From a virus, in the IMG/VR virus record IMGVR_UViG_3300011271_000002, positions 40,423 to 104,422 of that record: 64,000 nucleotides of DNA, one strand, 5' to 3'. Below, piece by piece: positions 1-43,379 of this stretch. The position numbers were made by a program, and so were the translations under genes. The number at the start of each line of letters is the position of its first letter. The first letter of the stretch is position 1. The notes under the pieces were generated by a model. It was not told where the DNA came from. It saw nothing but the letters and a program-made list of their open reading frames with translations, and did no database searches.

Positions 1-3000
1 AGCCTGAGCGGCTCATCGCCGTCAAGCGATTCGGTTCCCTGGAGATCATCCGTGAACGCACCAATCAAAAGCTGTTTGCGGACGTAGTTGATGGTCGGAA
101 TCGTGATCGTGCTGACCGATTGCGGATCCGGATTATCACCAATCGGGGTGGATGAGAACGGGAACCAACTCGGGCCAACGATAATCGGAACTGAAGTCGC
201 ATCCATCAACAAGGGTTGATCGAAGGTATAGCCGGTGTGACCATTGGCCACCACTTTCGCGGTTGCCCCGCGATTGAAACCAGCCCAAATAAGCCCGAAC
301 AAACCGACCTCGAAATTTATGTTGAGTCCAGCGTGTGGATTCGGGATACCGGTGATCTGGTCGATGTTCTGCGAATTCGACATGCCGGCATCGGTGAAGA
401 CCGTGTTCGAGCCGCTGTTGTCATAGCCCTTGAACGAAACCGCGAACACGTCGCCGATCAGGATGTCGCTGGGTGTGCGATCCAGAGTGAAGGTGCCGGT
501 CGCCGGATCGAACGCCGTGATGCTGTAAGCGCTGAATGGCGCTGCGGCGTTATTCCGCCCCATCAAGATCCAGAAACGCCCCGCCCAATTATCCGTGAGG
601 CTGACATCCACGCAATCCGGAGAAATTATCGTATTACCGACGATGCTGCCAACCGTGGCACCCTCGACGCCGGCATGACCGATTGGCTTGTATTTCAGGA
701 TCACGTCATTGACCTGATCGTCCGGAAGCGCCCAGGTGGACCGTGCCAGAGGCCCAGTCAGCGTAACGGAACCAGGCGTATAGTTGTCGGGCGGCGAAGA
801 TGCCGTCAATGCACCGGTCGCCTGCTCGCAGATCAGATCATTGAAGTAGGAAGCGAAAATAGTGTAGGTCGTTAGCCCGCCAGCGCTGGGCCAGATAATA
901 TCCGCGCCGCCATAAAACACCCCCATGTTGCCCCAAATCGCAATGCCCGAGGCGGTCAACGAGTTCCCCGCCAAGCCCGCAGTGATAGCCGTGCATTGAA
1001 TGCTCACATTGTCCGCGGCCAACGCCGCCGTCGCGCTCCCATTGGCAGTTGTGGCGGCTGCATAGGCGCTACCGGAGCCAGCGCCAAGATTTACGGCCGC
1101 CGCGAAATTGCTAATGCTGGTAGGAAGGTCGACGCCGATCGCCACATTGCCGTCGACATTGGTCAGCGTGGTCTGAAAAGTGTATAGTTTGCCCGCGATC
1201 TGGACCTGATTGCCATCGCCCGGCTGTGCCGCGAACAGGCCAGCAATCGATGCTTGCGCAGGACCGATCACTATTTTGTTAGTGTTAGTCCCAGCCGGAA
1301 TGCTTACGGCAACTATTTTTGATGGTGGAATTTGATTGCGATTGGCGTCCTGAGCGCCGAGCGCGAGCCAGACAGTTGTGCCGCCCTTTAGAAATCCGCC
1401 GGTCGGCAGCACGCTGATGTTGGACAGCATGAGCGACATCGCGACGGTACCTGGAATGAAAGTGGTGCACGGGAATTTGCCGGTCGCGTTAGCGAACGCC
1501 TGGGCGCTTCCATCGGCCAACATCGTGTAGGTTTGCGAGAGATCGAAAGTCCATTCGCTCGGGAAAAGCGCATCGCTCGCCGAGGCCTGCACCTGGAACG
1601 GCGCCCATTGCCCGATCGGAACGATAGCAACGGGACCGCCTTGCGCGATAACCCAAGCGGAAGGAATGCCGGCGGCGTTCACCGAGCGAATCCGGACGGT
1701 GAATTGCTGGCCGGCTGTCAACCCGGGAATTGGGATGCTGGTTATTTTTGGATCTATCTTGCCGAGCGAGATCCAGATACCGGGCGGCGTCGCCAAAAGC
1801 TGATATTGGGGCTCGAGGTGGCCCCCATTGATGACATAGGAATCCGCCGGCGCCGTCCAGGAAAGGATCACATTGCGTTCATGGTCTCCCGTGACGCGTA
1901 CGTTAGTCGGTGGCGCCGGATTTCTTGTATCGGGAGAGATCGCCTGCTGGAAACCGTCTGGGGAAAGCTCCTCTCCGATTACCCAGGCATAGATTGAACT
2001 ATCCGTTTCCTGAACGTCTATTTCGGTTCCGAGCAGCGTGACATCCTGACCCGAATGCCCCGATTGCCGGTCCATCTTGAAGCGAAACGCCTGAATTTCC
2101 AGCGTCTTGGCGGACCATCCAAAATACGGAAAATCCATTGAGATCACGTCTAGCGGCGCGAGCTGGTAACCGGTCATGTTCAACATGAAACTGCCGGTCC
2201 CCATATTCAATCTGCGCAGCAATTCTATCTTGGCGATTCTTTGAGCGGTCGCGGCGGAATTTGTAAACGGAAGTTGAATATCGAGCCAGCGACGGTCGCC
2301 GCCATCGTAATCTAAATTTGCATCGAATGTCGGGCCCGCTCCCCAGGTGTATCCGTGATACGTGTCCTGGGCATACCTGGGAAAGTCAGCAGCCATCCAG
2401 CCGTTCGAAGGACTGATGTAGGTTCCCTTGACGCCGTTGTACCGATTGGATATTGAGACCGTCGGCCGCCAGCGGGGGCCGCCTGTTGAAAGCGAAAGAA
2501 TCTCCGTTGCTAGCGAGGGCGTGCCGCCAACGCCAATAATGGTAGAGACGCCGGCCCAATGCGCCGGCCAAATCACGAATTGTCCGCCCACGTAAGTTAT
2601 GCGGCCGGCGCAAGAGGTCAGCATGTTGTGGAGAATCTCGCCGCGCTTCATGGTCAATTGAAAACCGCCGTTGCAGGTATAGCGTGGTTCGGTTCCGCCA
2701 GTCGCTAGCGGCACAGCCTCATCGCAAATATTGGCGGCGGCGATCAACGGCGCACTCGGGATGTCGGTGCCATAGTTCGCTTTGAATCCCCATTTCTTGT
2801 TCGCCAAATGATCTGCCGTGCATAACGCGGCGTTTTCGCTGTAACCGGAGGTCGAGGTCCTGGGGTCGAAAATGTCGTTTTTGCCGCGGACCAAAAAGCT
2901 AATCTGCGGGAGTCCGTTAGCGAATACTTCGTCGTTGTAGTGAAGGCGCAAAAATACCGCTGTCATCCCAACCAAAGAACAGTTTGCGGTCCATGGGTTC

Positions 3001-3779
3001 GTGTTGTTGTGAACGAGATTGCCGGCGTCGCCGTCATATGGCGTGCCGTTGATCATGCCATTGAAGGTCTGGCCGAGAGTCTGCGAGCCCAGCATGACCT
3101 CCATATAAATTTTGCCGCGATAGTCAACCCAGGCCGTGTGCGTGTCGCCGGTTTCGGAACCAGGGAACGAGGGAATGCTGATCGCCACGCCGCCGGAAAC
3201 GTAGGTGAATGTAACCGTGTTTCCTGGTCCGTGCGTGACCGTTTGCACCATGACCTTGCCGTTGAGTCCGGCGCTGACCGGATGCACGTTCTGGACGATA
3301 ACGGAATCGCCAACGGATAACAGCGGAATGTCCTTGCTCACGTGAACCGTAACGATGTTCCCAACCCTGGCGATGCTGCTATTCGAAGGATCTTGCTGCA
3401 CCGGACTGAAACTCGTGTTGTTGCGGCCAATTTGAACCTTCTGCTGATCGAAGAGTAGCCAATCGACTGCCTGACACGGATGGCAGGCGAGGACAATTAC
3501 AAGATCGCGGTACTTATCGTTGTCGCCGAAAGAATTGTCATAAACCAGCGTGCCGCCCTCGCGTTTGCGGCCATAGATTACGTTCCACGGCGCAATCGGA
3601 TTGCGTTCGGTGGTGGCAAACCCCTGGAGCGGCCCTTTCTGAAATATGGTGCCGAGTGCGCTGAGGACGAGGCCCGCCGCGGAACTGATGAGAAATTCCG
3701 AGAGCCCAATGATGGCCGCCCCAACACCTGGCGTGGGCGCATAAGCTCCGGCGATTTTTCCAAATATGCCCTTGGACAA
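1..3779 (-). CDS. Tail tip / host-specificity protein (J-like), 3' end outside window
   Basis: The frame stays open from a TTG at 3779 to the left edge (1,259 codons without a stop), so the C-terminus is missing. The N-terminus is a Gly/Ala-rich hydrophobic stretch followed by a segment like NPIAPWNVIYG, typical of distal tail hub proteins of siphoviruses and gene transfer agents. Residues about 618-705 look like a fibronectin type III domain (PAPPTNVRVTG to TVRIRSVN). It is last in the series DUF2460-like, DUF2163-like, NlpC/P60-like, which is where the receptor-contacting tip protein normally sits. The start is uncertain: no in-frame ATG occurs for about 170 codons, and the TTG follows directly on the upstream stop. 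Confidence 0.85.
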   Translation of the reverse strand, partial: MSKGIFGKIAGAYAPTPGVGAAIIGLSEFLISSAAGLVLSALGTIFQKGPLQGFATTERNPIAPWNVIYGRKREGGTLVYDNSFGDNDKYRDLVIVLACHPCQAVDWLLFDQQKVQIGRNNTSFSPVQQDPSNSSIARVGNIVTVHVSKDIPLLSVGDSVIVQNVHPVSAGLNGKVMVQTVTHGPGNTVTFTYVSGGVAISIPSFPGSETGDTHTAWVDYRGKIYMEVMLGSQTLGQTFNGMINGTPYDGDAGNLVHNNTNPWTANCSLVGMTAVFLRLHYNDEVFANGLPQISFLVRGKNDIFDPRTSTSGYSENAALCTADHLANKKWGFKANYGTDIPSAPLIAAANICDEAVPLATGGTEPRYTCNGGFQLTMKRGEILHNMLTSCAGRITYVGGQFVIWPAHWAGVSTIIGVGGTPSLATEILSLSTGGPRWRPTVSISNRYNGVKGTYISPSNGWMAADFPRYAQDTYHGYTWGAGPTFDANLDYDGGDRRWLDIQLPFTNSAATAQRIAKIELLRRLNMGTGSFMLNMTGYQLAPLDVISMDFPYFGWSAKTLEIQAFRFKMDRQSGHSGQDVTLLGTEIDVQETDSSIYAWVIGEELSPDGFQQAISPDTRNPAPPTNVRVTGDHERNVILSWTAPADSYVINGGHLEPQYQLLATPPGIWISLGKIDPKITSIPIPGLTAGQQFTVRIRSVNAAGIPSAWVIAQGGPVAIVPIGQWAPFQVQASASDALFPSEWTFDLSQTYTMLADGSAQAFANATGKFPCTTFIPGTVAMSLMLSNISVLPTGGFLKGGTTVWLALGAQDANRNQIPPSKIVAVSIPAGTNTNKIVIGPAQASIAGLFAAQPGDGNQVQIAGKLYTFQTTLTNVDGNVAIGVDLPTSISNFAAAVNLGAGSGSAYAAATTANGSATAALAADNVSIQCTAITAGLAGNSLTASGIAIWGNMGVFYGGADIIWPSAGGLTTYTIFASYFNDLICEQATGALTASSPPDNYTPGSVTLTGPLARSTWALPDDQVNDVILKYKPIGHAGVEGATVGSIVGNTIISPDCVDVSLTDNWAGRFWILMGRNNAAAPFSAYSITAFDPATGTFTLDRTPSDILIGDVFAVSFKGYDNSGSNTVFTDAGMSNSQNIDQITGIPNPHAGLNINFEVGLFGLIWAGFNRGATAKVVANGHTGYTFDQPLLMDATSVPIIVGPSWFPFSSTPIGDNPDPQSVSTITIPTINYVRKQLLIGAFTDDLQGTESLDGDEPLR

Positions 3780-27527: not shown

Positions 27528-27991
27528 GGCGTGCGGACCCATCGCTGTTTCGGTGTGACCGGATCGGCTTTGCGATTCGGGCGCGAAGCCCAGCCGTAGC
27601 CGCTCTTGTGCGTGCTCATACCGAACGGTGCCCAGCCATCCGCTCGATAGATAGTCCCCTCGTGCCCTTGCTGCGGGTCGCTATAGGAGATGAGCAGTCG
27701 AATTCCGTTGAGCCAAGTGCGCACGTGTTTGCGCATCATCGCGAGCGCTTGAGATTCAACATAGGCGGTCGTATCGTCGATAAAGTAGAGCCGATTCAAT
27801 TCAAGGACAAGATCCGCGTCCAGTCCCCGCGAGGATGGCCGACCGAGGATCATCGCCCCGATCAGTTCTCGACCTTCGACAAATTCCAGCACGTGAACGA
27901 ACCCCGACGGCTTCGAACGCAGATAATGCAATTCGGCGATCCACTCTGCCGTGAGCCGCGATTCGGATGGCTGGCACCGGCGAATGTTCAC
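27524..27991 (-). CDS. Mom-like DNA modification enzyme
   Basis: This is a 155-residue protein with a GTG start overlapping the upstream TGA. LIGAMILGRPSSRGLDADLVLELNRL, a central helix, ISYSDPQQGHEGTIYRADGW and FG are the pattern of phage Mu Mom and its relatives, which have an acetyltransferase fold. Mom converts adenine in phage DNA to a carbamoylmethyl form that blocks many restriction enzymes. It is coupled to the SMC-like ATPase gene. The activity is inferred from the family. Confidence 0.72.
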   Translation of the reverse strand: MNIRRCQPSESRLTAEWIAELHYLRSKPSGFVHVLEFVEGRELIGAMILGRPSSRGLDADLVLELNRLYFIDDTTAYVESQALAMMRKHVRTWLNGIRLLISYSDPQQGHEGTIYRADGWAPFGMSTHKSGYGWASRPNRKADPVTPKQRWVRTP

Positions 27992-29939: not shown

Positions 29940-30560
29940 TCAAGCCGCCCTGGTTTTGGCTCTGATCCTATCGAGAGTCTTTTCAAAAGCCTCAATTAGA
30001 TCTAGAAGTGTGTTGTACAGATCAGGCGAGGAGAAAAGTTCCAGTTCCGCCTGGACCTGTTCGCGGAGTTTCACTGATCTCGATTCTTCGATCATTCGCG
30101 ATCTCAAGGATTCGATCCGCAATCGGTCTTGATCGGATCGTTCCCATGCCCAATAAGCCCTGCCGTTTGGAGCGAAAATATGACAAGCGAGACAGAGTGT
30201 CCGGAGACATCCAGGACGATTATCTCGCCAACTATTCACATGATGCACCTGAAAGGAGTCCGGATGTAAATGCTTCAAATTCAGCGTTTGCGGACGAGCA
30301 CATTTTCGGCATTGATAACCATCGCGTGCCAGAATCAATGGGCGAAGTTTACCGAATTCCGATTGATGTAAGGATGCTTTGTCGCGAGGCTGCTTCTTCT
30401 CGTTTATATATCTGGCGAGACTGGGCTTACAGGATCGATTTCTCTTAAGTTGTTGAAACAACTTAGTTAGGCATGATTTGCGGAAGCGCAAAAAGTGCTT
30501 AACGTTTACGGTCGAGCGTCGGCATTGTTTAGGGTCGATCAAGCCGTCGGCGATGCTCAT
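29940..30560 (-). CDS. HNH endonuclease, 206 residues
   Basis: The HNH core is RPLILARDGYQCRKCARPQ, FQVHHVNSWRDNRPGCLRTLCLACH: two CxxC zinc pairs around the HH. The N-terminal ~60 residues are basic and the C-terminal ~60 form a helix. It could be a homing endonuclease or a phage-function HNH; location does not decide. Confidence 0.8.
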   Translation of the reverse strand: MSIADGLIDPKQCRRSTVNVKHFLRFRKSCLTKLFQQLKRNRSCKPSLARYINEKKQPRDKASLHQSEFGKLRPLILARDGYQCRKCARPQTLNLKHLHPDSFQVHHVNSWRDNRPGCLRTLCLACHIFAPNGRAYWAWERSDQDRLRIESLRSRMIEESRSVKLREQVQAELELFSSPDLYNTLLDLIEAFEKTLDRIRAKTRAA

Positions 30561-31846: not shown

Positions 31847-32560
31847 TCACCAGGTGCTTACGGCCACTCGCCGCCAGGTGCCAGTGTTGACGCATGAATA
31901 ATAGAAGGAGCTATCCACCGCGTATGAGCCTGATACGCACGCCGAGGCGGAGCTTGTCGGCACAGCCACTCTGATCCCGATCAAGGTCAGATCGGCCCCG
32001 AGAGTGGTGATGCCGCCGACGTCCGTCGTCGTCATGCCGGTGCCGGGTTGAATGGCCTTCGTTCCGATAAACGCGCGGAGATCGGTGCCTCCGTTTATAT
32101 CCCATGCGCCGTTCGTCGCCGTCCACTGAAAGAGCGGAACGGAATCGGGAGGGAACGAGTTTACGCCGAGAACGGAAGTGCAGCCCGCGCAGGCGATGGT
32201 CAAGTTATGCCCGACCGTCAGGTTTCCTTGCGGGGTTATGTAGAATAGTGCTGCGCCACTGCCGGCCGAGATCGTCGCTGTCGCGCTGGCGACCAGCGAG
32301 TAGACCAAGCTGCCGAAACGCACATTGCAGGGTGTGGGGATGGAACAGCGCGCGCCGATCGTGAGAATGTGCGGATCTTTGCCGACATCGAAATCCCCAA
32401 GCTGGCTCGCCATCGAAGCGCCGGCGCCGGAAATTGTCACGCTGGCTGGCGCGTTCTTGAGATCCTTAGCGCTGAATTGCGTCGGGCTCTGTGCGAAGGC
32501 CCCGGCGATCGCCAGTAGCAGAATCGAAAGCTTTAAGGATTGGTCTTGTAGTCGAAACAT
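31847..32560 (-). CDS. Secreted tail-fibre/adhesin-like protein, 237 residues
   Basis: The N-terminus has a signal peptide (LKLSILLLAIAGAFA, likely cut before Q), preceded by ten extra residues. After it comes QSPTQFSAKDLKNAP, which closely resembles the start of the next upstream protein (QSPTQINIKDI). The body is beta-rich and Gly/Ser/Thr-rich (TVGHNLTIACAG, GTDLRAFIGTKAIQPGTGM). The C-terminal SACVSGSYAVDSSFYYSCV is like small phage fibre tips. It is last of nine exported proteins in a row. Confidence 0.7.
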   Translation of the reverse strand: MFRLQDQSLKLSILLLAIAGAFAQSPTQFSAKDLKNAPASVTISGAGASMASQLGDFDVGKDPHILTIGARCSIPTPCNVRFGSLVYSLVASATATISAGSGAALFYITPQGNLTVGHNLTIACAGCTSVLGVNSFPPDSVPLFQWTATNGAWDINGGTDLRAFIGTKAIQPGTGMTTTDVGGITTLGADLTLIGIRVAVPTSSASACVSGSYAVDSSFYYSCVNTGTWRRVAVSTW

Positions 32561-33279
32561 ATCCGGCCATCACCAGGTTGGAACCGTGCGGGGTTGATGA
32601 TCGTCACTGTCGTGCCCGTGAGTCCATAATCCTGCCCCGCTTCCCATTGCTGGCCATTCTCATGGACGTAGAGACTTCCGGAAACAAGAGAAGTTCCGGC
32701 CGCTAGTGCTAACGGATAAGAGCCACTGGCATTCGCCGCGTAGCACTCGCCGCGGACGGTCGATGGTGTAGCGGTCGGCGAGCTAGCCGGAAGCGCCTGC
32801 GGCTCCCAGCGGCCTGTGGTGGCGTTCCAAATGAGCGCCTGCCCTTCCTGTGGCGCATTCGGCGAAACAGGCTTGCCCTGAATCGCGAGCACGGCATTGA
32901 CACCCAGTGTGCCCTGCACGTCGCCGGTTAAGGCGAGCGCCTGCCAGAGCGCATTAACGCCATCGGTCAAGAGAGACTGCCCGACGTGTCCGGCCATCGG
33001 CGGCAGACCGGATCCTCCGGTCGGTGTCACGGTAAAGATTCCAGGTGTGCCGCCAAGCGCAGGCGCGGGCCCGGTCGGCGGCGTGAGCTTTGCGCCGACG
33101 AGAATCGCGCAGCCGCACTGATAGGCCATTCCGTTATTGACTGGCCAACAGGTAAACACCACAGGCTGTGGCGCGAGCGGCACGCAGGAGCCAGGCACGA
33201 TGTCTTTGATGTTGATTTGCGTGGGGGACTGAGCCTGGAGAGTCAAACAGAGCCATATCGAAATGAATGCTGATCTCAT
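32533..33279 (-). CDS. Secreted tail-fibre/adhesin-like protein, 248 residues
   Basis: The signal peptide MRSAFISIWLCLTLQA precedes Q. Then QSPTQINIKDIVPGSC resembles the N-terminus of the 237-residue neighbour. The middle is Pro/Gly-rich (PPTGPAPALGGTPG) and contains a fibre-like EGQALIWNATTGRWEPQAL segment. The C-terminus (LYVHENGQQWEAGQDYGLTG then FQPGDGRICFDYKTN) resembles phage tail-fibre end domains. The start is placed at the signal peptide, not at the longer upstream frame. Confidence 0.7.
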   Translation of the reverse strand: MRSAFISIWLCLTLQAQSPTQINIKDIVPGSCVPLAPQPVVFTCWPVNNGMAYQCGCAILVGAKLTPPTGPAPALGGTPGIFTVTPTGGSGLPPMAGHVGQSLLTDGVNALWQALALTGDVQGTLGVNAVLAIQGKPVSPNAPQEGQALIWNATTGRWEPQALPASSPTATPSTVRGECYAANASGSYPLALAAGTSLVSGSLYVHENGQQWEAGQDYGLTGTTVTIINPARFQPGDGRICFDYKTNP

Positions 33280-33311
33280 GGAGCGCAGTCTAGCACGATC
33301 CGGCAATAACC

Positions 33312-34808
33312 TTAGTGTATCGCTCCTCCAGCCAACACGCTCTTGCTGGATAACTGTCCACCGCCCATCGGGCCGAACACCACCACGGTATTGGAAAACG
33401 TGCTCAGATAGACCTTGCCGTTCGCAACAGTGGGCGAGACATACTTGGCACAATTACCAACGGCGTCTCCAGCCTTGGCGGTTGAATCGTATAGTAGGGA
33501 CAGTGTCGTGCCATCGAAGGCCCGCAGCGCTCCGACCTGTGTAACGTCCAGATTGTATACTTGGCAGGAATTCACCCAAAGTATTCCATTGGAGGCTCCG
33601 TTTGAGCTGTAGGCCACTCCCGACATATAAGTCGGATACACATAGCTAGTAGCAGATGGAGTGGTCGTGAATGTCGTTCCGTTGTATGTGTTGCGTTGGA
33701 TTCCCGCTGGCAGAGCCGGATTGACATGCGAGTTATCAATAGTGTAGAGACCGTTGTTGGCAAAGGCTGAAGCGTCAAAAAGTTCTATCTGCCCTGCCCA
33801 ATCCTGCACCTGAGAACTTGGTGAGGCAGCAACCTGAGTATGTCCCATGTTGCTCTGGTCGGTTATCCACCAAACGCCGTTCTTGCCGCCGGACATCACG
33901 CGCGTGCCGACCAGGATTGGGCGTCCAGAACCTTGATCGGTATCGTTGGTATTGAGCGTGGCCCACCCGGAGTTGACGAGATAATCTTGGACAACCAGGG
34001 AAGAGTTTAGTTTGAGGATGCATTCACCGAAATTGTTGGTGCCGTCGAATGATCCGTTTCCAACTGTACAGTAGACATTTCCAGAACCATCGGCAGCCAT
34101 GCCTCCGCCCGCCTGCCAGATTCCGCCTCTTCCCCCGCTCGTGTTGACTGTGACAAACACGGCAGTTTGAGCAAGCGTCGTTGAATTGTAAGCAAATGCC
34201 CAGCCCTGCCATGTACCGCCGTCGTTGTAGCTGGCAAATCCGAAGTCCACCTTTCCACCGGATAACAGCAGGGCAGTCCTCGCCTGATGGCTGGTGGAAT
34301 CAAAGGTTAACCCTTGGGCGGTACCGGAAATAGTGACGGCGGCGTGGAATGTGGACCCATCGGAGATATTGAGCGCAAAAAGTTTCCACACATCGGTTGA
34401 GTTCACGCAGACTAGATAGATCACGCCAGCCGACGAATCGATGACTGGTGTGCTGGTGCAACCAACCTTGGCTGCCGAGAAGTTCGTATCCGTGGTGGTT
34501 TTCGGAGTGTCGAGATGTTGGCTCCAGATAGCTGATCCGCAGCCATCCGCATTAAAGGCGTAGACGGTATCGTTGTCGGTGGCCACAAAGATCCGATTCG
34601 GGCTCCCACTCATATATAGGACTTGTCCGTAAACCAAACCATCCACCGAGTACGAACATAGTTTGCCAAATGCCCCACTCACTTTGGCGGTAGTTAGTAT
34701 GGTCTCGGTTGTGGTCGCGTTTGTACGCGAATTGTCGTACTGACCGGTGAGTACATCGGCACACGCATGGCAGCCAAACAATAGAAAACTTACAAGCAAG
34801 GTCCTCAT
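33312..34808 (-). CDS. Secreted quinoprotein-like beta-propeller protein
   Basis: This is a 498-residue protein. The signal peptide MRTLLVSFLLFGCHACA is followed by DVLTGQYDNSRTNATTTET, then repeated blades (VYGQVLYMSGSPNRIFVAT, DTVYAFNADGCGSAIWSQ, STPVIDSSAGVIYLV, SPTVANGKVYLSTFSNTVVVF). This is a PQQ-dehydrogenase-like eight-blade propeller fold without visible cofactor residues. Related secreted propellers are common in Acidobacteriota (my recollection). It lies inside the adhesin cluster and starts in the ATGA overlap with the upstream gene. It was possibly captured from a host; a binding role is likely. Confidence 0.75.
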   Translation of the reverse strand: MRTLLVSFLLFGCHACADVLTGQYDNSRTNATTTETILTTAKVSGAFGKLCSYSVDGLVYGQVLYMSGSPNRIFVATDNDTVYAFNADGCGSAIWSQHLDTPKTTTDTNFSAAKVGCTSTPVIDSSAGVIYLVCVNSTDVWKLFALNISDGSTFHAAVTISGTAQGLTFDSTSHQARTALLLSGGKVDFGFASYNDGGTWQGWAFAYNSTTLAQTAVFVTVNTSGGRGGIWQAGGGMAADGSGNVYCTVGNGSFDGTNNFGECILKLNSSLVVQDYLVNSGWATLNTNDTDQGSGRPILVGTRVMSGGKNGVWWITDQSNMGHTQVAASPSSQVQDWAGQIELFDASAFANNGLYTIDNSHVNPALPAGIQRNTYNGTTFTTTPSATSYVYPTYMSGVAYSSNGASNGILWVNSCQVYNLDVTQVGALRAFDGTTLSLLYDSTAKAGDAVGNCAKYVSPTVANGKVYLSTFSNTVVVFGPMGGGQLSSKSVLAGGAIH

Positions 34809-35695
34809 GGATGTATCCATGCGATTCCTAAATTGTCGGCGTTGTTAGCAAATGCTCCAAGCGTGGCTGGTAGAGTCGTCCCGCTGATGGAATTTGCCAC
34901 TTTTCCAGCAACCCCAAAACTAGTATCTAACAGCAACTCGATGTTCCCCGTGGCATTCACCGCTCCGATAAGGCCTACGCCACTATCCGTGCAACCTATC
35001 GCAGAGTAGTAAAAGCCTGGGTTCAGAACAACCGTGGTGATCGTGGTGGTTTTGACCCCCGTGGCCGCACTGGAAATAGCCCCCGAGGTCAGAAGGAGGG
35101 TGTTGCCCGTATTGTCATATACACCGACCAAGCAATTACTTGCCGCAATGGCGGTCGTAACGAGGATGTCTATTTTGGTGACCGACAGGGTGAATGGAAG
35201 ATTAAATAGAGCGGCTTGAACGCTATTAGAGCCAGGGTTGTTCCAAGGCGTGCCGTTGATAGTGGCAATCGCTGGATTGCCGAACGGTAACAAAATACCG
35301 CAATTGCCGCTTGAGCAACTGAACCCGCCCGCCGCCGTAGTCTGCGGATTTTGCAATTCCCATTGCGTGCCAGTTGTGTTGTAGATCGCACAGGCTTGGG
35401 CAGTGGTGATAATGTCGTTAGCCACGAGAGCGCCGCCTGCCTTGACGATGGGGTGGGCTGTTAGGCCGTTGGGCGAGAAGCTCGGCGCGGCTGCGGTGTT
35501 GGCCGCTGTTGGCTTCCAGCAGACATGCAATCCGTCGTAGAGTCCGGTAATCGCTGGGGAGTAGGTGGCCGTCTGCGCCTGGGCTGTGCCGCCGCCAGCT
35601 ATCCAGTTATGAGCACCGTCCACCGTGCGGGATCCTTCCCTAGTCTGAGCAAGCGTTACTACCGAAACAACGAGGATGATTGCAACTTTTTTCAT
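34805..35695 (-). CDS. Secreted tail-fibre-like protein, 296 residues
   Basis: The signal peptide MKKVAIILVVSVVTLA precedes Q. Next comes NWIAGGGTAQAQTATYSPAI, then KPTAANTAAAPSFSPNGL, VANDIITTAQACAIYN and WELQNPQ. This is a module found in many phage tail fibres and repeated in the 341-residue protein of this cluster. The rest is a jelly-roll-like beta domain (LPFTLSVTKIDILVTTAI, NPGFYYSAIG). Fibre homology together with an export signal is unusual. Confidence 0.75.
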   Translation of the reverse strand: MKKVAIILVVSVVTLAQTREGSRTVDGAHNWIAGGGTAQAQTATYSPAITGLYDGLHVCWKPTAANTAAAPSFSPNGLTAHPIVKAGGALVANDIITTAQACAIYNTTGTQWELQNPQTTAAGGFSCSSGNCGILLPFGNPAIATINGTPWNNPGSNSVQAALFNLPFTLSVTKIDILVTTAIAASNCLVGVYDNTGNTLLLTSGAISSAATGVKTTTITTVVLNPGFYYSAIGCTDSGVGLIGAVNATGNIELLLDTSFGVAGKVANSISGTTLPATLGAFANNADNLGIAWIHP

Positions 35696-35700
35696 AACGC

Positions 35701-36429
35701 TCAGTGAACCACAAAGACGCTTGGAGTGCTCACATAGCTCAGGGCCGACGTGTCCATTTCAACAGCGACAACGCCGAAAGCGCTCGCCGATGTTCCGCCC
35801 CAAGTAATTGTTGTGCCTGTGAACCCGCTATCACGAGTCTCATAGTCCGCTCCGGTGGAAGGCGTGTTGTATCCAGTGTCGGACTGCCGCGTCCAACTTG
35901 ACGTGACTGTAACGCCTCCTGTGTTGGTACCGTTGCCGACGCAACTGAGCGTTGGGTTTCCGGTGAGAGCCGAACCTGTAAAGGTAGTAGCGGGCGTGCC
36001 GGATGCAGCCTGGTTACTAGACACTTTGGATTGTTTAACGGCGCTGGAACCTTTTCGCGTCATGCCGCTTATGCGAGCCACCATTACGATCGCGCCGGTG
36101 GCGTTGCCGCCAGAAGTGTTGAACGTCACGGTCATTGAGGAATTCGCGGCGAGCGCGTTGGCCACAAAGACGTAGATCGTATCCGCGCTGCTGTTTTTTA
36201 ATGCAGTTGTGATCTGGGTGAAGCCTAGGGACTGGGAGTCGGTGAGACTGCCCGCAGTATTGCCGCTGGATATAACGCAGGCGTACAGGAGATCATTCGC
36301 GGCCGGCGTGAAGGAACCGCTCGCGTAGGTCGAAACGTTGGAAGTGCTGGCCGTAGAAACCCCAGCCGTCACCGCCGCTGCCGAGAGAGAAAGCGAGAGC
36401 GCGAGCAGTATCAACAAGCCGCGCCGCAT
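35701..36429 (-). CDS. Secreted beta-rich protein, 242 residues
   Basis: The signal peptide MRRGLLILLALSLSLSAAA is followed by a Ser/Thr/Ala-rich beta domain (LLYACVISSGNTAGSLTDSQ, TIYVFVANALAANSSMTVTF, FGVVAVEMDTSALSYV). The pattern of short strands suggests a jelly-roll or Ig-like fold. The ATG overlaps the TGA of the 1140-residue gene (TGATG). The function is not recognised; surface exposure is inferred. Confidence 0.65.
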   Translation of the reverse strand: MRRGLLILLALSLSLSAAAVTAGVSTASTSNVSTYASGSFTPAANDLLYACVISSGNTAGSLTDSQSLGFTQITTALKNSSADTIYVFVANALAANSSMTVTFNTSGGNATGAIVMVARISGMTRKGSSAVKQSKVSSNQAASGTPATTFTGSALTGNPTLSCVGNGTNTGGVTVTSSWTRQSDTGYNTPSTGADYETRDSGFTGTTITWGGTSASAFGVVAVEMDTSALSYVSTPSVFVVH

Positions 36430-39400
36430 CACCTCATCACCATCCAGTTTAGGGTGATCGCTCCTGGAGTGACGGAAGACCCGGTGTTATTGCACGTCTT
36501 AAAATTCACATTTCCAGAAGTAGGATACGCGATGATAGTCAACATCCCGCTTGTGGATGGGACGTAGCCGGTAACCGCTGTCGGATCGCCGTTAAAGCTG
36601 GCTACCAGTACATCGGTCGATGCCACGCCGGTTGCGGTGGACGTGACTACAGTGGCGCACGCTCCGGAGGAAATCGCTCCAGTTCCCATCGCCGCCGTGC
36701 CGCTGGCAATAGTCTGACTGAGGATATTTGATCCGGCGGCCGTGGGGACCGTGCTGCCATTGATCGAGGTCAGGCTGGCTAGTGTCGAAACACCTGTAGC
36801 ATCCCCGTTCCCGACTCCCTGATGACTGGCGAGCCGAATCAACGGCAAGGTGGTAGAAAGCGTAGGGAATGCTGTTCCATCAGGGAATGTGGGCCAAGTT
36901 CCGCTGGTTGCGATCACCACACCAACCGTAATGCCCGTGCCGCATGGAGTAGTACCGCCGCTATCGGTCACCTTTCCGGCGGTCGTTCCCGCGCACACGG
37001 TATGACCTATCGTGACGGCCGCCGAAGCATTCACCGGTATTTCAGACGGGGCTGCAGCCACTGTGACTTGAATAGTGCTCGACTTTGAAAGCGCTATCCC
37101 GGCGATGACCTTGGGGGAGGCGCTGCAATCCGTCGCTGTCTTTGCAGTAGAGGTATAGCATTCAAGATTCCACTGAGTAACGGTGCCGCTCTGAGCGTAG
37201 GACTCCGCGACCAGGAGTAATCCTTGAAGGCCCGTACTGGTAGCACCGGTGCTAGATCCTGCCAGTAACTCAGCCGACCCACCCGCACTCGCTGTATTCG
37301 TAGCGGCATTCGATCCGCCGGCATGGAGCGCACCGCCGCCCTGTGAAGACGCTCCACCTGCGCCGGTTTCGTTCGCTCCGCGTAGCGTCACAGATCCAAG
37401 GGCCGAGTTTGCCGATGCGTCCTGGCCGCCGATATAAGTGAGCGCCTGTGTAGAGGTCGGCGATTGCAATTTGTTCGTTCCATCCTGAAAACTGGCTAAC
37501 TCAACGTATCCTTGTGACTCGATTCTAAGATGGGTATCGTAAGTCCCGCCTCCTCCGTTGGTAGTAAGAACCCGTCCCAGTATTTGTCCGATGAGAGGAA
37601 CCGTCGCGCCCGCATCGTGACAGTCGCCAGCGGTGGTGGTCGATATCTGTACATAATCGCCAGCGGTGGTAGCCCCGTCGTATATACACTGAGTCATTCC
37701 GGCTATGCTGATTTCGGCGGTGCTAGTAGTGCCACAGCCGGAAACGCAAATGCCTATAACGCCGTTCGTATCGGTAGTGAGTGGCGTAACTGCTGTACTT
37801 GGAGCTCCAGTCAATTTAGCCAACTTGTTCAGTGTCGTCCCCGTCGAACTGGCGTTCGTGTGCGTCATCGTGATCGCCATGTTGCCCACGCTGAGATTGG
37901 TATTCAGCGACGGAAAAACTAAGTTGGATAGAGCCGTGTTCGCGCCGCCAGTACCGCTTCCACTCTTAAGAAGCAAAACGTACCCCGCCGTGGCGGTATC
38001 CCAGTTGATTGTCACATCATACTGCGTCCCGCCCGCCGCCATCTCGCAATGCGCGTCCTTCGGCTGAAGCCACTGACGAGTTGTCCCTGATGTGACCAAG
38101 GTGGTAAAGGACAAATCGCAAGTGCCCAAACCGTGAACCGAGTTGGGGATGCTCCAAGTTGTAGCCGAAGCTTCGGCGGCGGCGTAAGATCCAGATCCGC
38201 CAGAGAAAGGCATCACGCCACCAGAGCGCTGGGTAAACGTATTAGCCGTGACGGCATTGGTGGAAAACGCCACCGTGAAGTCCACGAACAGAGCGGCGGT
38301 TAAATCGATGTTTGAGGATACGGCGGTATTTGTATCTACAAATACTGAGTCTGCTGTAGTCGTCAACGCGCCTAAATCGACAGCCAATGGACCATGGATC
38401 TCAAGGTTCCCCGAGGCCCCGGTGGTAGCAGTATAGCCGAGCACGGCAAGATTCCAGTTGTTATTCGTGACCGCTGCAATGGTGGCGGTGCTGACAATCG
38501 AAACGAGTGTCACCACTGTTCCCGATCCGCAGCCGCTTACGGTGCAAAGTTTGGTCTTGAGAGTAATCGTTGGAGTCTGGGCAGTTTGGGTTGAGTACGT
38601 TCCAGCCCCATCGAACAGAAACGGTTGACGGAGGTTATTCAAATACCCGGTCGGCAAGGCTAGTTCCATTAACGTCTGATCAGATGTCGTATTGGTATTC
38701 ACCGTCACAGCGCTGAGATTAACAACTGCACCACCAGGCGGAGTGATCGGGATATAACCGGACACACTGCTACCTGAAGTTTGCCACGTTACATTAACAT
38801 TACCCCCCGGCGCGGCGGGCGTGGCTGCGTTGAAGTTTGGACTAGAAACCGATCCGCCATTTACTGATACGCTGGTGCCGCCTCCTCCTCCACTGATCAC
38901 TTCGGCAAAGTAGTTAGTGCCATCTGACCAGACGCGCCAGCCAGTAGGAGCCGTTGCCGAGCCCGCCGTGCCGGTAAGATTCGCAGCCGCACCGTTGATG
39001 TTCTGTCCGCTACGCGCAAGTATCACAACGCCAGTTCCATAGTTCAAGATCGTGATGTAATTTCCATTCACAGGTTGAGAACCGGAAGCCACGAGCGTAA
39101 TGGTAAAAGTGCCAGAGGCCACGAGAATAGTTTTGTAGTTGGTGAAGTCGGCGGCTAGGACTTGGTAGGCAGCGGTTTGAGCGTTGGAGGCGAATGGAGC
39201 GCCGAGAACGACCTGGCGGCTTGAGTTCGTGGCTAGTAGAGCGGCAGACAAAGGAAGAATAAGACCATTGGTTCCCGTGATCTGATCGGAGATGTTGATG
39301 TCCACGCCGGATGCTACTACCTGCACTGCCCCGCCATTGTTGTTGTTCATCTTCCAACGATGCGCGGCGCTATCGGCATAGAATAGATCCGAGTTCGCCA

Positions 39401-39851
39401 CGCCAGCAGGCGCGGAGCCTTCCGGTTCCGACACTCCATGCCAACTACTTCCAGGGACTCCCGTCACCACACCCGTCATGTTCGTACCGTCATATGAGAA
39501 AATTTGTTCAGTGCAATTCGTGGTCCCAGCTGCAGGATCAGGCTGGCTACCGCTAAGGATGTTTGAAGAGAACGTGTATGTCCGACTACCGACTGAATCC
39601 TGGCACGAGCGTAGGAGATATAGCCCCGGTCCTTCCGTCGTGGCGCTGAAAGCCAGTGTGGTGTTACCCGCCCCGAAGTCCACCTCGCAGACATTCGTAT
39701 TTAGGAAATTACACGTTGTCGTCCCACCCGAATTGAACGTCGGCTTATTGACATTGCCGTTTGAGAACAATGATGGAACGCCGTTCAAGGTTAAAGTTTG
39801 AGCCGCCATCGGCACGCACGAGATGGTGAGTAGTATTAGGGCTTGGCGCAT
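36429..39851 (-). CDS. Giant secreted tail-fibre/adhesin-like protein, 1140 residues
   Basis: The signal peptide MRQALILLTISCVPMAA precedes Q. Around residues 150-175 is VANSDLFYADSAAHRWKMNN, a segment typical of phage tail fibres. The rest is built of Thr/Ser/Gly/Asn-rich beta repeats (TNYFAEVISGGGGG, GATVPLIGQILGRVLTT), with a domain like those of virion-associated trimeric fibres in the C-terminal third (TVTQWNLECYTSTAK). The stop overlaps the next start. Large, repetitive and exported, it would behave as a surface adhesin or an exported fibre. Confidence 0.75.
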   Translation of the reverse strand: MRQALILLTISCVPMAAQTLTLNGVPSLFSNGNVNKPTFNSGGTTTCNFLNTNVCEVDFGAGNTTLAFSATTEGPGLYLLRSCQDSVGSRTYTFSSNILSGSQPDPAAGTTNCTEQIFSYDGTNMTGVVTGVPGSSWHGVSEPEGSAPAGVANSDLFYADSAAHRWKMNNNNGGAVQVVASGVDINISDQITGTNGLILPLSAALLATNSSRQVVLGAPFASNAQTAAYQVLAADFTNYKTILVASGTFTITLVASGSQPVNGNYITILNYGTGVVILARSGQNINGAAANLTGTAGSATAPTGWRVWSDGTNYFAEVISGGGGGTSVSVNGGSVSSPNFNAATPAAPGGNVNVTWQTSGSSVSGYIPITPPGGAVVNLSAVTVNTNTTSDQTLMELALPTGYLNNLRQPFLFDGAGTYSTQTAQTPTITLKTKLCTVSGCGSGTVVTLVSIVSTATIAAVTNNNWNLAVLGYTATTGASGNLEIHGPLAVDLGALTTTADSVFVDTNTAVSSNIDLTAALFVDFTVAFSTNAVTANTFTQRSGGVMPFSGGSGSYAAAEASATTWSIPNSVHGLGTCDLSFTTLVTSGTTRQWLQPKDAHCEMAAGGTQYDVTINWDTATAGYVLLLKSGSGTGGANTALSNLVFPSLNTNLSVGNMAITMTHTNASSTGTTLNKLAKLTGAPSTAVTPLTTDTNGVIGICVSGCGTTSTAEISIAGMTQCIYDGATTAGDYVQISTTTAGDCHDAGATVPLIGQILGRVLTTNGGGGTYDTHLRIESQGYVELASFQDGTNKLQSPTSTQALTYIGGQDASANSALGSVTLRGANETGAGGASSQGGGALHAGGSNAATNTASAGGSAELLAGSSTGATSTGLQGLLLVAESYAQSGTVTQWNLECYTSTAKTATDCSASPKVIAGIALSKSSTIQVTVAAAPSEIPVNASAAVTIGHTVCAGTTAGKVTDSGGTTPCGTGITVGVVIATSGTWPTFPDGTAFPTLSTTLPLIRLASHQGVGNGDATGVSTLASLTSINGSTVPTAAGSNILSQTIASGTAAMGTGAISSGACATVVTSTATGVASTDVLVASFNGDPTAVTGYVPSTSGMLTIIAYPTSGNVNFKTCNNTGSSVTPGAITLNWMVMR

Positions 39852-40174
39852 TCAAGCACGTTCTCTTTGGCAAACTTGGCTTCATCCAGTTGGCAGATTG
39901 CTCGAACTACTATCAGATAAGCATCGAATTCTCTTTCCGCCGCGATCCGCGCCGCCTGGGCATTTATTTCGTCGAGCCGCTTCTCCATCATTTTTGCCCG
40001 CTTGCTCCAATAGATGATCTGCATGGGAGCTAGGATGACAGGCGAATCTTTCTTGCTCTCCGGCGTGGCGACTGTTTCTTTCGTGGCGTCGGCCACCGGC
40101 TTTTCGTCCTGTTGCTTCGTTTGGCCAGCAAAGGATAGACTCGCACACAATACGAAAAATAGTAACCGTGTCAT
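39836..40174 (-). CDS. Small exported coiled-coil protein, 112 residues
   Basis: The signal peptide MTRLLFFVLCASLSFA is followed by a charged linker and a long amphipathic helix (KRAKMMEKRLDEINAQAARIA). Two cysteines lie in the C-terminal part (AICQLDEAKF, VLECAKP). Its stop overlaps the start of the 1140-residue gene. It may be a periplasmic partner or assembly helper of the large protein. Confidence 0.6.
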   Translation of the reverse strand: MTRLLFFVLCASLSFAGQTKQQDEKPVADATKETVATPESKKDSPVILAPMQIIYWSKRAKMMEKRLDEINAQAARIAAEREFDAYLIVVRAICQLDEAKFAKENVLECAKP

Positions 40175-40183
40175 TCTCGGTTC

Positions 40184-41209
40184 CTACATGTTGATGACGG
40201 AGATGCCGGTAGCGTAAGAATTGGTTCCGTCGTCGAGAAACGATACAACTGTACACTTCGACGCCGTAAGACCGATGTCTGGATGACCCAACATCGTGGC
40301 TGGCCAAACGAAGGTAAAGTTCCCAGTTCCATTTTGGCAGACTTTGATTATTGGCTCAAGGCCGTTCGAATGATTCGATACCGTCGCTCCGGTGACGTTG
40401 CCGGTCAGTGTGATGGTGAAAATGTCCGACAAACTTAGATCAAAATTAGGCGTGGCGGAAAATGACACCGTCGTGCTCTTGTGTGCCATGTTGCCTGGCA
40501 GAATGATGGCAGTAGCCAACGAGATCACCGGAGTTGTACCTCCAGTGCTCGCGATTTGATTGCTCGTACCGTTGACTGCTGTCACGGAACCACCAGCGCT
40601 ACCACAAGCCCCTGACTGAGGATTGAATAGTTGGAATTGAGTTCCATCATAAATGACTTCGGCCACGGCCGCCGTGATCAGATCATTCGCCACAAGAGCC
40701 GTAGTTCCGCACTTCGTGATGGCCGTGGCGGTAAGACCATTGACCGCTAGCGTCGGAGCCGCTCCGGTATTGGCCGCATTCGGCTTGAAATAAAGCGTGA
40801 GACCGGTCGTCAACGCCGTAGCGGCAGGAGCTAGCGTTGCGGTCTGAGCTTGCGCCGTGCCACCACCCGCGATGTAGTCGGTTGCGTTGAGATCAGAGAA
40901 ACTCTTGCCAGCTGGATCGGCTCCCGTCACGCCACTCAAGATAGCTAGGTTCGCAAGCGCTACGCCGCCGATCGCATTGCCAGAAGCTGCGTTAACCGAT
41001 ACGCTATGATTCGCCGCCCCGCTATTGACGTTGCAGGTAGAACCTAAGGTACAGGTCTGGCCATTGACGGTAGTGGAAGCATTACTCAGCGAGCCGTTGG
41101 TAACACTAGCCAGCGTTTGATTTGGGACGCCATTGATGGTGCCGGTACCTTGTGCGAAAGCCGCTATTGCGATTAGCTGCAACGAGAAGGCGAGACGAAG
41201 AGAACGCAT
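40184..41209 (-). CDS. Secreted tail-fibre-like protein, 341 residues
   Basis: The signal peptide MRSLRLAFSLQLIAIAAFA precedes Q. Residues ~115-200 carry the same YIAGGGTAQAQTATLAP to FQLFNPQSG module as the 296-residue protein. The C-terminal ~95 residues (FDLSLSDIFTITLTGNVTGA to ASKCTVVSFL) match the C-terminus of the 265-residue protein next to it. The protein therefore links two modules found separately in its neighbours. Confidence 0.75.
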   Translation of the reverse strand: MRSLRLAFSLQLIAIAAFAQGTGTINGVPNQTLASVTNGSLSNASTTVNGQTCTLGSTCNVNSGAANHSVSVNAASGNAIGGVALANLAILSGVTGADPAGKSFSDLNATDYIAGGGTAQAQTATLAPAATALTTGLTLYFKPNAANTGAAPTLAVNGLTATAITKCGTTALVANDLITAAVAEVIYDGTQFQLFNPQSGACGSAGGSVTAVNGTSNQIASTGGTTPVISLATAIILPGNMAHKSTTVSFSATPNFDLSLSDIFTITLTGNVTGATVSNHSNGLEPIIKVCQNGTGNFTFVWPATMLGHPDIGLTASKCTVVSFLDDGTNSYATGISVINM

Positions 41210-41231
41210 TTTGTTTTGTATCCTTCTTGTG

Positions 41232-42029
41232 TCATTGATTGATGAGACCCTTAGCGTAGATTTGATCACCATCCGAAGTGAAATCCTGTGTTGAACATTT
41301 GCTTGCTATCAATCCTACCCCAAAACCGCCGTGCACGCGCGCGGCCCAAGCGAAGGTGTGATTTCCGGCCGGGTCCTGGCAGATCGTTATGGTGATCGTC
41401 TGTCCAGCCAGAACGTTGGGGAAAGTCTGATTCGTCACGTTGCCGGTCAATGTTATTTTGAAGGCGGTCGCCACGCTGAGATCGAATACCGGTGTGGCAG
41501 AATAAGGCACAGTTAAAAAAGTTGGCGGGCTCTGCGGTCCCCATTGCACGACGCCGCCTATCACCTCGAGCGCATAACCATTCGATCCAATCGGCGTCAG
41601 TTGATTTATGTTCAGCGCGAACGGCGTGGCGGGTAAGGCGTTGACCTGAACTCCGGAAAGATCCAGCGTCGTCCCCGTATCCGGCACGCTCCAGAAATCG
41701 CGGTACACGATCCCGTTCGTGTGGTACTCCGCAACGTATCCGAGCGGCGCCGTGGTGGTGCCCGTGGCCGTACTTCCGATCGTTGGTTGCAGATTGACAT
41801 CGAGGTATCCGGTGTTCGCTCCGGATGTGGGGATATCGTATCGGAAAACTGTGGTGGTGACCGCTACGCCACCGGCCGTCCGGAAGGGACGATTTGCCTG
41901 GATCAACACGTAGCCTGTCGCCGGTGCGCTGCCCGGGCCCGCGACATTGAGCAATTGGCGAATGTGCGTGATCGCGCCCAATGGCATGGAGACGCTCAGA
42001 AGAGCAAGTACTGCCAGCCTGTGACGCAT
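41232..42029 (-). CDS. Secreted tail-fibre-like protein, 265 residues
   Basis: First gene of the exported cluster. The signal peptide MRHRLAVLALLSVSMPLGA is followed by an N-terminal beta domain (GYVLIQANRPFRTAGG, TTTVFRYDIP) and YHTNGIVYRDFWSVPD. The C-terminal domain (FDLSVATAFKITLTGNVTNQ to GLIASKCSTQDF) is shared with the next protein and is of a kind seen in phage fibres. Transcription must start in the 42030-42101 gap. Confidence 0.72.
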   Translation of the reverse strand: MRHRLAVLALLSVSMPLGAITHIRQLLNVAGPGSAPATGYVLIQANRPFRTAGGVAVTTTVFRYDIPTSGANTGYLDVNLQPTIGSTATGTTTAPLGYVAEYHTNGIVYRDFWSVPDTGTTLDLSGVQVNALPATPFALNINQLTPIGSNGYALEVIGGVVQWGPQSPPTFLTVPYSATPVFDLSVATAFKITLTGNVTNQTFPNVLAGQTITITICQDPAGNHTFAWAARVHGGFGVGLIASKCSTQDFTSDGDQIYAKGLINQ

Positions 42030-42272: not shown

Positions 42273-42502
42273 TCGGCAAGATCCGCTTCGCCGTGACTCG
42301 CGTTCCAGTGCGGAATCTCGCCACAGGCCGCGCAGTGCACGAACTTGCCCACGGTACCGCCGGGCGCATCGTGGCCGCATTCCAGTGCCACTCTTCGCGG
42401 CGTCATCGACGGGCACTCGCATTTCGTGGATCGCCGGTGGCAGGCAATGCAGAACGCGACTACTTCGCGTAGGAGTTTGAAGGCGCCGGATTTGAAGCCC
42501 AT
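42269..42502 (-). CDS. Small zinc-binding protein, 77 residues
   Basis: Cysteine pairs CIACHRRSTKCECP and CGHDAP/HCAACGEIPHW suggest two zinc sites. It overlaps the end of the HNH gene by ~40 bases and its stop overlaps the plus-strand microprotein. The role is unknown. Confidence 0.55.
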   Translation of the reverse strand: MGFKSGAFKLLREVVAFCIACHRRSTKCECPSMTPRRVALECGHDAPGGTVGKFVHCAACGEIPHWNASHGEADLAD

Positions 42503-42813
42503 TTGCTATTCCTCTGAATCTGCCTGTGTTTGATGATTAGTTCCGCCATCACCTCGGGATTTCTGTAGACGATCCTGCTTTTGCATCGCTGGCGCATCGC
42601 ATCGTCGATCTCTTGAACTCCTCGAATCAAATTGCAGTAACGATGGGCCAGTTTAAGATTCTCGCTGACCGTCTGCCCTTTCTTAAAGCGCGGCACAACG
42701 TGATCGAGGGAAGCGCGAACATCGTGGCTCAACGGAAGATGAGAAAGAAACCTACCACGAAATAGCATCGGCAGTTCGCAGATCCAGCACAGCTCGCCGT
42801 GTTCGTGGCGCAT
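42460..42813 (-). CDS. HNH endonuclease, about 117 residues
   Basis: ELCWICELPM, ASLDHVVPRFKKGQTVSENLKLAHRYCN and LIRG form the HNH/McrA core, with CxxC at the front and the DH...N...H catalytic series. The start is uncertain: GTG 42819 and ATG 42813 lie just upstream of the core, while the ATG at 42882 would overlap the previous gene by 43 bases. It could be a homing nuclease or a packaging-type HNH. No terminase is nearby. Confidence 0.75.
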   Translation of the reverse strand: MRHEHGELCWICELPMLFRGRFLSHLPLSHDVRASLDHVVPRFKKGQTVSENLKLAHRYCNLIRGVQEIDDAMRQRCKSRIVYRNPEVMAELIIKHRQIQRNSKWASNPAPSNSYAK

Positions 42814-42839
42814 CCGCACGAGATTCGAGCGCAGACTTT

Positions 42840-43379
42840 TCAGCCGATCATCCTCAACTGTTCCGGCCAGTGCTCCGCGCAAATGAATGAGCGGTCATCG
42901 CCAAGGTCGCGGATGTGTCGGAAGCAGCCTGGCTGTCCGCATTGGACGCGCTGTAGGGTCAGGACGACGTCGCTCTTTTTCCAGTAATATTCGTCGACGC
43001 GGCGGTCGCCACCAGACTTGTTCCGCTTCCTCCGGACGATAACGCGCATCGTGTGATCCATGACAACTCCCTGCTGATTGAGGTCCGCGATTTGCAGAAT
43101 GTGGCCCTGGCGAGTTCGCTTCATATTTGAGCATTCGTCGCCAACCTGGAGAAGATCCACGCGCTTGGGCAGGAACAATTCAACCGGCCAGATACAGCGG
43201 CCATCGGCGGCGGCCGCGCACTGGTAGCAGAGCTGATGTTTGCATGTGCAATCGGTGAAAGTGCCCGTCATCGAAACCGTCATCGCGGTGCAAAACTGGA
43301 AAATCTGGCCATGCTCGCGCGGGCAGCGATGGCAGAATGGACGGTCGCTTCGACAGATCGCGCAGAAGGCGGAAGTCAT
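42840..43379 (-). CDS. Cys-rich multi-zinc protein, 179 residues
   Basis: The ATG at 43379 overlaps the upstream TGA. At least five Cys pairs appear (FCAICRSDRPFCHRC, CTCKHQLCYQC, CGQPGCFRH, CAEHW), with a strand-rich middle (IVRRKRNK, EYYWKKSDVVLTLQRV). This is like zinc-knuckle proteins seen beside rSAM or HNH genes in phages. The function is unknown. Confidence 0.55.
   Translation of the reverse strand: MTSAFCAICRSDRPFCHRCPREHGQIFQFCTAMTVSMTGTFTDCTCKHQLCYQCAAAADGRCIWPVELFLPKRVDLLQVGDECSNMKRTRQGHILQIADLNQQGVVMDHTMRVIVRRKRNKSGGDRRVDEYYWKKSDVVLTLQRVQCGQPGCFRHIRDLGDDRSFICAEHWPEQLRMIG

Follow-up and report, generated by a model that had tools for sequence, protein, structure and literature searches.

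A run of nine adjacent phage genes with Sec signal peptides, several of them carrying tail-fibre modules

Nine contiguous minus-strand genes of a tailed phage each encode a protein with a Sec-type signal peptide, and their products are almost certainly exported. The run lies at 31847-42029 of the stretch of DNA analysed here (the window: 64,000 nucleotides, positions 40423-104422 of the 104,422-bp IMG/VR virus record IMGVR_UViG_3300011271_000002); the other 40 kb of the record were read too. Our best reading of the sequences is that the run is an operon of exported, disulfide-bonded accessory proteins of a siphovirus-like phage, several of which contain tail-fibre modules. Export is well supported, and we infer every step beyond the inner membrane.

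Signal peptides in all nine genes

The nine genes follow one another with gaps or overlaps of -28 to +32 bp. They are listed below with their signal peptides, the residues that follow the cleavage site where noted, a signal score and the number of cysteines in the mature protein.

31847..32560, minus strand: gene 1, 237 amino acids; signal MFRLQDQSLKLSILLLAIAGAFA before QSPTQ; score 10.2; 6 cysteines
32533..33279, minus strand: gene 2, 248 amino acids; signal MRSAFISIWLCLTLQA before QSPTQ; score 6.9; 6 cysteines; phrog_11585 (0.004)
33312..34820, minus strand: gene 3, 502 amino acids, resembling exported PQQ-like beta-propeller proteins; signal MDTSMRTLLVSFLLFGCHACA before D; score 8.8; 8 cysteines
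34805..35695, minus strand: gene 4, 296 amino acids, sharing the bead module of gene 8; signal MKKVAIILVVSVVTLA before Q; score 11.4; 6 cysteines
35701..36432, minus strand: gene 5, 243 amino acids; signal MMRRGLLILLALSLSLSAAA; score 11.1; 2 cysteines
36429..39851, minus strand: gene 6, 1140 amino acids, multi-module, fibre-like; signal MRQALILLTISCVPMAA before Q; score 6.2; 18 cysteines
39836..40174, minus strand: gene 7, 112 amino acids, small and charged; signal MTRLLFFVLCASLSFA; score 9.2; 2 cysteines
40184..41209, minus strand: gene 8, 341 amino acids, bead module at residues ~100-200; signal MRSLRLAFSLQLIAIAAFA before QGTG; score 8.6; 6 cysteines
41232..42029, minus strand: gene 9, 265 amino acids, first transcribed of the run; signal MRHRLAVLALLSVSMPLGA; score 9.1; 2 cysteines

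The listed open reading frames of genes 2 and 8 reach further upstream, and their starts were moved from 33453 to 33279 and from 41272 to 41209, respectively. In all nine N-termini a basic n-region leads into a hydrophobic core and then a small-x-small cleavage site, which mostly precedes Q, D or G; they thus have the make-up of cleavable type I signal peptides, as judged by a calibrated heuristic that we wrote to weigh charge in the n-region, the hydrophobic core and the -3/-1 rule (not SignalP). For calibration we scored 72 annotated genes of Escherichia coli K-12, sorted by us into four protein classes from their gene names; a score of at least 6 was reached by 14 of 14 exported, 1 of 46 cytoplasmic and 1 of 12 inner-membrane proteins. 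A score of at least 6 is reached by 20 of the 125 genes of the 104-kb contig, and those outside the run mostly resemble proteins with a single transmembrane segment. Genome-wide scoring may settle on another start that is more favourable to a signal, a bias to which all genes are equally subject. When the calls of the contig were permuted 20,000 times, a run of nine was never reached.

The mature parts of the nine proteins hold no segment resembling a membrane span, and inspection of the nine signals revealed no clear lipobox, the mark of lipoproteins such as Llp of phage T5. None of the nine begins with the N-terminal virion-attachment domain of a Caudoviricetes tail fibre; the signal peptide stands there instead.

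Even cysteine numbers

Even numbers of cysteines are favoured in exported bacterial proteins (PMC7678975). The mature proteins of the run have even counts in nine of nine cases, as expected of proteins that pair their cysteines in an oxidising compartment. Related runs of signal-bearing genes occur in other viral contigs (arrays, see below), and an even count is found in 65 of 73 array proteins with at least two cysteines, drawn from nine contigs taken whole and from the new loci after removal of redundant ones. The p value of 1.6e-12 is optimistic, given that module-sharing proteins are not fully independent, and the array set probably includes a few plain membrane proteins. Without the nine proteins of the window the figure is 56 of 64 (87%); among the other genes of the same nine contigs it is 157 of 263. 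Cysteines are also denser in the arrays, at 1.77 per 100 residues; in fibres that carry the same module and have no signal the value is 0.41. Even mature counts are a mark of disulfide-bonded exported proteins and therefore provide independent support for export.

The first-pass annotation had recognised Sec signals on nine adjacent minus-strand genes, and this was borne out by scores of 6.2-11.4, the E. coli calibration and the nine even cysteine counts. Chance, or an artefact of hydrophobic N-termini, is ruled out by the permutations, the calibration and the cysteine parity.

Modules of the nine proteins

Fibre-type modules are supported in genes 1, 4, 6, 8 and 9. The C-terminus of gene 1 (residues 166-237) is a phage tail-protein domain (phrog_17312, 1.5e-9). 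Genes 4 and 8 contain a bead module of ~100 residues, and the module profile (A3) has a match in gp47, a tail fibre of Pseudomonas phage Pa193 (PDB 9b45, E 8e-17). Gene 4 matches phrog_25864 (1e-4), and its module is 81% identical to that of an array protein in contig G005. An AlphaFold model of gene 8 is confident in the bead module only (residues ~111-200), and the 9b45 chain ranked first in a fold search (prob 1.00). Genes 8 and 9 have a C-terminal domain in common (49% over 90 amino acids), which in the form found in gene 9 also occurs in the signal-bearing protein L127:8525-9634. Gene 6 is a mosaic that has modules in common with signal-bearing proteins of G001 (82% over 178 amino acids), L142, L138, G002 and L129.

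The first-pass annotation had called all nine genes fibre-like. While this stands for the five genes above, it does not for gene 3, which is beta-propeller-like, or for the small, charged gene 7, whose family search gave sub-threshold matches only; genes 2 and 5 have no assignment, and family searches with gene 5 gave no match. By sequence, gene 3 appears closest to cellular exported beta-propellers: it is 34% identical over 96% to a 'PQQ-binding-like beta-propeller repeat protein' of Acidisarcina polymorpha that has a signal of its own, and a homologue (37%) is part of the G001 array. Searches of Pfam and NCBIfam gave no match for gene 3, and its AlphaFold model has a predicted local distance difference test score (pLDDT) of 37.

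Signal-bearing relatives in other phages

A first scan with gene 8 returned 75 viral contigs, in which most carriers of the module are ordinary fibres that start with MARNGAGTYTLPAGNPVTTGTT, have no signal and serve as a natural control. In a tree of the module, the signal-bearing carriers fall into two well-supported clades (98/96 and 100/98). Given this clustering, we expected a signal on any phage gene whose module belongs to the window clade, and made this prediction before scanning afresh with a six-sequence alignment of the clade. The fresh scan returned 35 contigs and the prediction held: a signal was present in 15 of 15 close carriers, usually with signal-bearing neighbours, and in 0 of 3 distant ones. 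Copies and contigs already seen were removed from the count of 15, which includes L121 by way of an internal start giving MKRFLVAILLTLPLLVAQ. The distant carriers with a gene call are the ordinary fibres of L145, L147 and L151; five loci without a gene call over the match were left uncounted.

Overall, the modules recur in signal-bearing proteins of about 20 other viral contigs of varied types, usually in runs. The longest comprise five consecutive genes (G005 and G007) and four (G006, L127, L136 and L137). The bead module lies anywhere from residue ~8 to residue ~2100 of the mature chain. Some signal-bearing phage proteins are huge, with ~1,900-2,500 residues and up to 60 cysteines (L009:3701-11137, L142:4485-12035 and L136:10207-16017).

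Signals among the relatives are mostly 14-65% identical, and modules roughly 40-89%. The full-length pair L128:9444 and L136:9458 shows 88% identity across the mature parts and 65% across the signals, which differ in length by two residues and both remain signals. Divergence in sequence with the signal kept is the pattern that evolution of real signal peptides would be expected to leave. The first-pass annotation had allowed that such N-termini might prove to be ordinary virion anchors in related phages. Instead, the relatives with the closest modules carry signal peptides unrelated in sequence, and distant relatives have the ordinary anchor N-terminus MARNGAGTYTLPAGNPVTTGTT.

Scans with gene 1, 3 or 9 alone yielded no relatives, probably because the scan uses short exact peptides. 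Genes 3, 8 and 9 had no match in cultured phages, and a search of a genome collection returned one relative, an ordinary signal-less fibre in a metagenome-assembled genome of the Armatimonadetes.

Gene context in other contigs

Both L119 and L138 show the order baseplate wedge (phrog_6), short signal-less ordinary tail fibre (phrog_12796 and phrog_4209, respectively), signal-bearing genes, which suggests that the exported proteins are additional to the virion fibre. In the podovirus-like contig G007, the virion operon includes a GH18 hydrolase with a signal and, between head-tail and internal virion genes, a signal-bearing fibre with a Collar domain. In a protein of G006, a fibre-type N-terminus and, in our reading, an apparent tailspike start come after the signal. 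Further array features are a GDSL-like hydrolase in G005 and, in L008/G003, a weak GH42 match and PKD domains; GH18 and GDSL-like hydrolases are partners as expected for glycan targets. Recombinases were found in G005 (tyrosine integrase) and G001 (serine recombinase). Separately, the late operon of a podovirus-like contig encodes a GH18-family hydrolase (4e-37) with the twin-arginine-like N-terminus MTLSRRRFLLGSSALAAA (L108:8717-10165).

Genomic setting of the run

The record has the virion genes of a tailed phage: large terminase (phrog_9), small terminase, portal (phrog_12), head protease and major head protein (phrog_10). The features below are given in window positions, where negative numbers lie in the part of the record that precedes the window.

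-5514..-293: ordinary fibre genes of the phage, just beyond the J gene in the structural module
-282..3779: J-like central tail protein or tip protein (phrog_31/5616)
6420-9371: tape measure protein
29940..30560, minus strand: HNH endonuclease downstream of the run (phrog_119, 8e-9)
42460..42882, minus strand: HNH endonuclease upstream of the run (phrog_338, 3e-9)

The ordinary fibres have a virion-fibre-type start (MPWPPHQLSTFKPSSAEWN), no signal, and 3, 0, 0 and 0 cysteines. More than 25 kb separate the nine-gene run from this structural module with its J-like tip and signal-less fibres, and the neighbours of the run are DNA-metabolism and HNH genes. Mis-binned bacterial DNA is ruled out by the terminase, portal, major head protein, tape measure and J-like tip on the contig, and also by the recurrence of the run in many viral contigs.

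The two HNH genes flank the run on both sides, and GC (guanine-cytosine) skew is positive across 30-42 kb of the window. The flanks and the shift in skew could mean a mobile cassette, or the skew may merely reflect proteins rich in Thr, Gly and Ala. No Rfam element was found in the region of the run. Close to it, at 27988-29424, lies a conserved ATPase-like protein (phrog_1499, 2e-46; SbcC-like matches are weak), and a second terminase-like protein is encoded at 20034-21833 (phrog_2666, 2e-12), remote from the main terminase genes. A lone plus-strand gene of 118 amino acids (-2868..-2512; G000:37554-37910), surrounded by the minus-strand fibre genes in the structural module, has the strong signal MKRLLLALMFAALICSGCFA before DPCNS.

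Discussion

Tailed phages assemble in the cytoplasm, so that a Sec-exported protein would be unavailable for virion assembly. The clash between export and cytoplasmic assembly, raised in the first-pass annotation, gains support from the signals, the even cysteine counts and the conservation of signals in relatives, and the ordinary fibres of the same phage show neither feature. In the mechanism we propose, the nine products would cross the inner membrane via Sec with removal of the signal, be oxidised in the periplasm by Dsb-type enzymes of the host and, once periplasmic, be unable to join virions assembling in the cytoplasm. They would build up at the envelope and exit at lysis or through secretion by the host. 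Their targets would be receptors or surface glycans of the infected cell, its debris and its neighbours, which they would bind and, in some phages, also cleave. The likeliest benefit would be to keep progeny virions from re-adsorbing to spent hosts and debris, where they would be lost, and to prevent superinfection; detached fibre modules would thus do the job of T5 Llp.

The separate unsignalled fibres in the window phage, L119 and L138 favour exported accessory proteins at or outside the envelope. Action outside the virion, at or beyond the envelope, is probable, and the joint reading of export plus such action stands somewhat better than even. Receptor or glycan masking specifically, argued by analogy, is a tentative proposal. 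Some observations weigh against action outside the virion. In the virion operon of podovirus-like G006/G007, the only fibre-like genes recognised are the signal-bearing ones, which fits virion use. Exported and virion fibres of the same phage have no recognisable domain in common, apart from one short stretch in L138, and masking of the phage's own receptor is therefore not directly supported. Moreover, neither an outer-membrane anchor nor any known secretion motif was recognised.

Owing to the gene positions in G006/G007, L119 and L138, a serious rival is that the exported fibres belong to the virion. In this scenario they would mature and become oxidised in the periplasm and, at lysis or later, dock onto the tail tip or onto a short stub fibre made in the cytoplasm. 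Signal-bearing genes directly behind baseplate and short-fibre genes (L119, L138), a signal-bearing Collar-domain fibre amid virion genes (G007) and a signal joined to a fibre-type N-terminus and tailspike-like start (G006) would all fit. However, more than 25 kb lie between the window run and the virion genes, the phage has ordinary fibres, no docking domain common to the nine is seen, two of the nine are not fibre-like, and we know of no precedent among tailed phages for exported fibres docking onto virions. We regard virion loading as unlikely. It would imply that the host-recognition apparatus of some tailed phages is partly built outside the cytoplasm, with exported, oxidised fibres loaded at lysis as a mosaic, rapidly swapped set, which we likewise do not expect. 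The signal-bearing GH18 of G007, the GDSL-like hydrolase of G005 and the weak GH42 match and PKD domains of L008/G003 could instead point to a secreted glycan-active arsenal, in which binding modules and hydrolases loosen extracellular polysaccharide and aid the spread of progeny; family-library searches found no enzyme family in any of the nine window proteins, and we give this explanation rather little weight.

Lysogenic-conversion adhesins or surface proteins that benefit the host would agree with the likeness of gene 3 to cellular exported propellers and with the recombinases of G005 and G001. This is improbable: the 104-kb contig, which may be a fragment, has no tyrosine or serine recombinase match, and many arrays lie in or beside late virion operons. 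That the proteins are not exported at all, their N-termini being virion anchors, membrane segments or start-codon artefacts, seems very improbable. Although the signals were judged by a heuristic and some starts were chosen by us, this explanation runs counter to the E. coli calibration, is already contradicted by the cysteine parity, and fits neither the ordinary anchors of signal-less relatives nor the relatives' signals, diverged in sequence yet kept.

Tail fibres are taught as cytoplasmic virion components. Runs of exported, disulfide-bonded proteins with fibre modules in many unrelated uncultured phages would point to a widespread extracellular strategy, such as receptor or glycan masking or matrix remodelling, or to a new way of finishing virions, and both readings are testable from present sequences. 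Annotation pipelines that label such genes 'tail fibre' could misplace the site where the product acts.

Exported products of tailed phages are known from the lambda Lom/Bor-type morons, with Lom near the tail fibre genes. Lom and Bor are single small envelope proteins, whereas the window has a run of large fibre-like proteins. To our knowledge, PblA and PblB of Streptococcus lack a classical signal, and in the window run each gene has one. They are comparable to the window run as phage tail-type proteins that serve as surface adhesins (PMC4508584 for PblB). Llp of phage T5 and other superinfection-exclusion proteins (PMC9586334) are phage-encoded, exported and act at the envelope against re-adsorption and superinfection, the function proposed here; Llp, however, is one small lipoprotein, while the window holds an operon of nine non-lipoprotein products, partly of fibre modules and known from sequence. 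The ordinary tail fibre gp47 of Pa193 (PDB 9b45; PMC11042391) has the same family and fold as the bead of genes 4 and 8, but is a virion fibre on the baseplate, whereas in the window proteins a signal peptide replaces the anchor domain and the cysteines are paired in number. In the literature, subscription journals and bioRxiv being outside our scope, we found no description of signal peptides on tail fibres or of secreted phage fibre proteins. The parts, namely fibre modules, Sec signals and phage-encoded envelope proteins, are known, and runs of exported, disulfide-bonded fibre-module proteins across many unrelated phages appear to be new.

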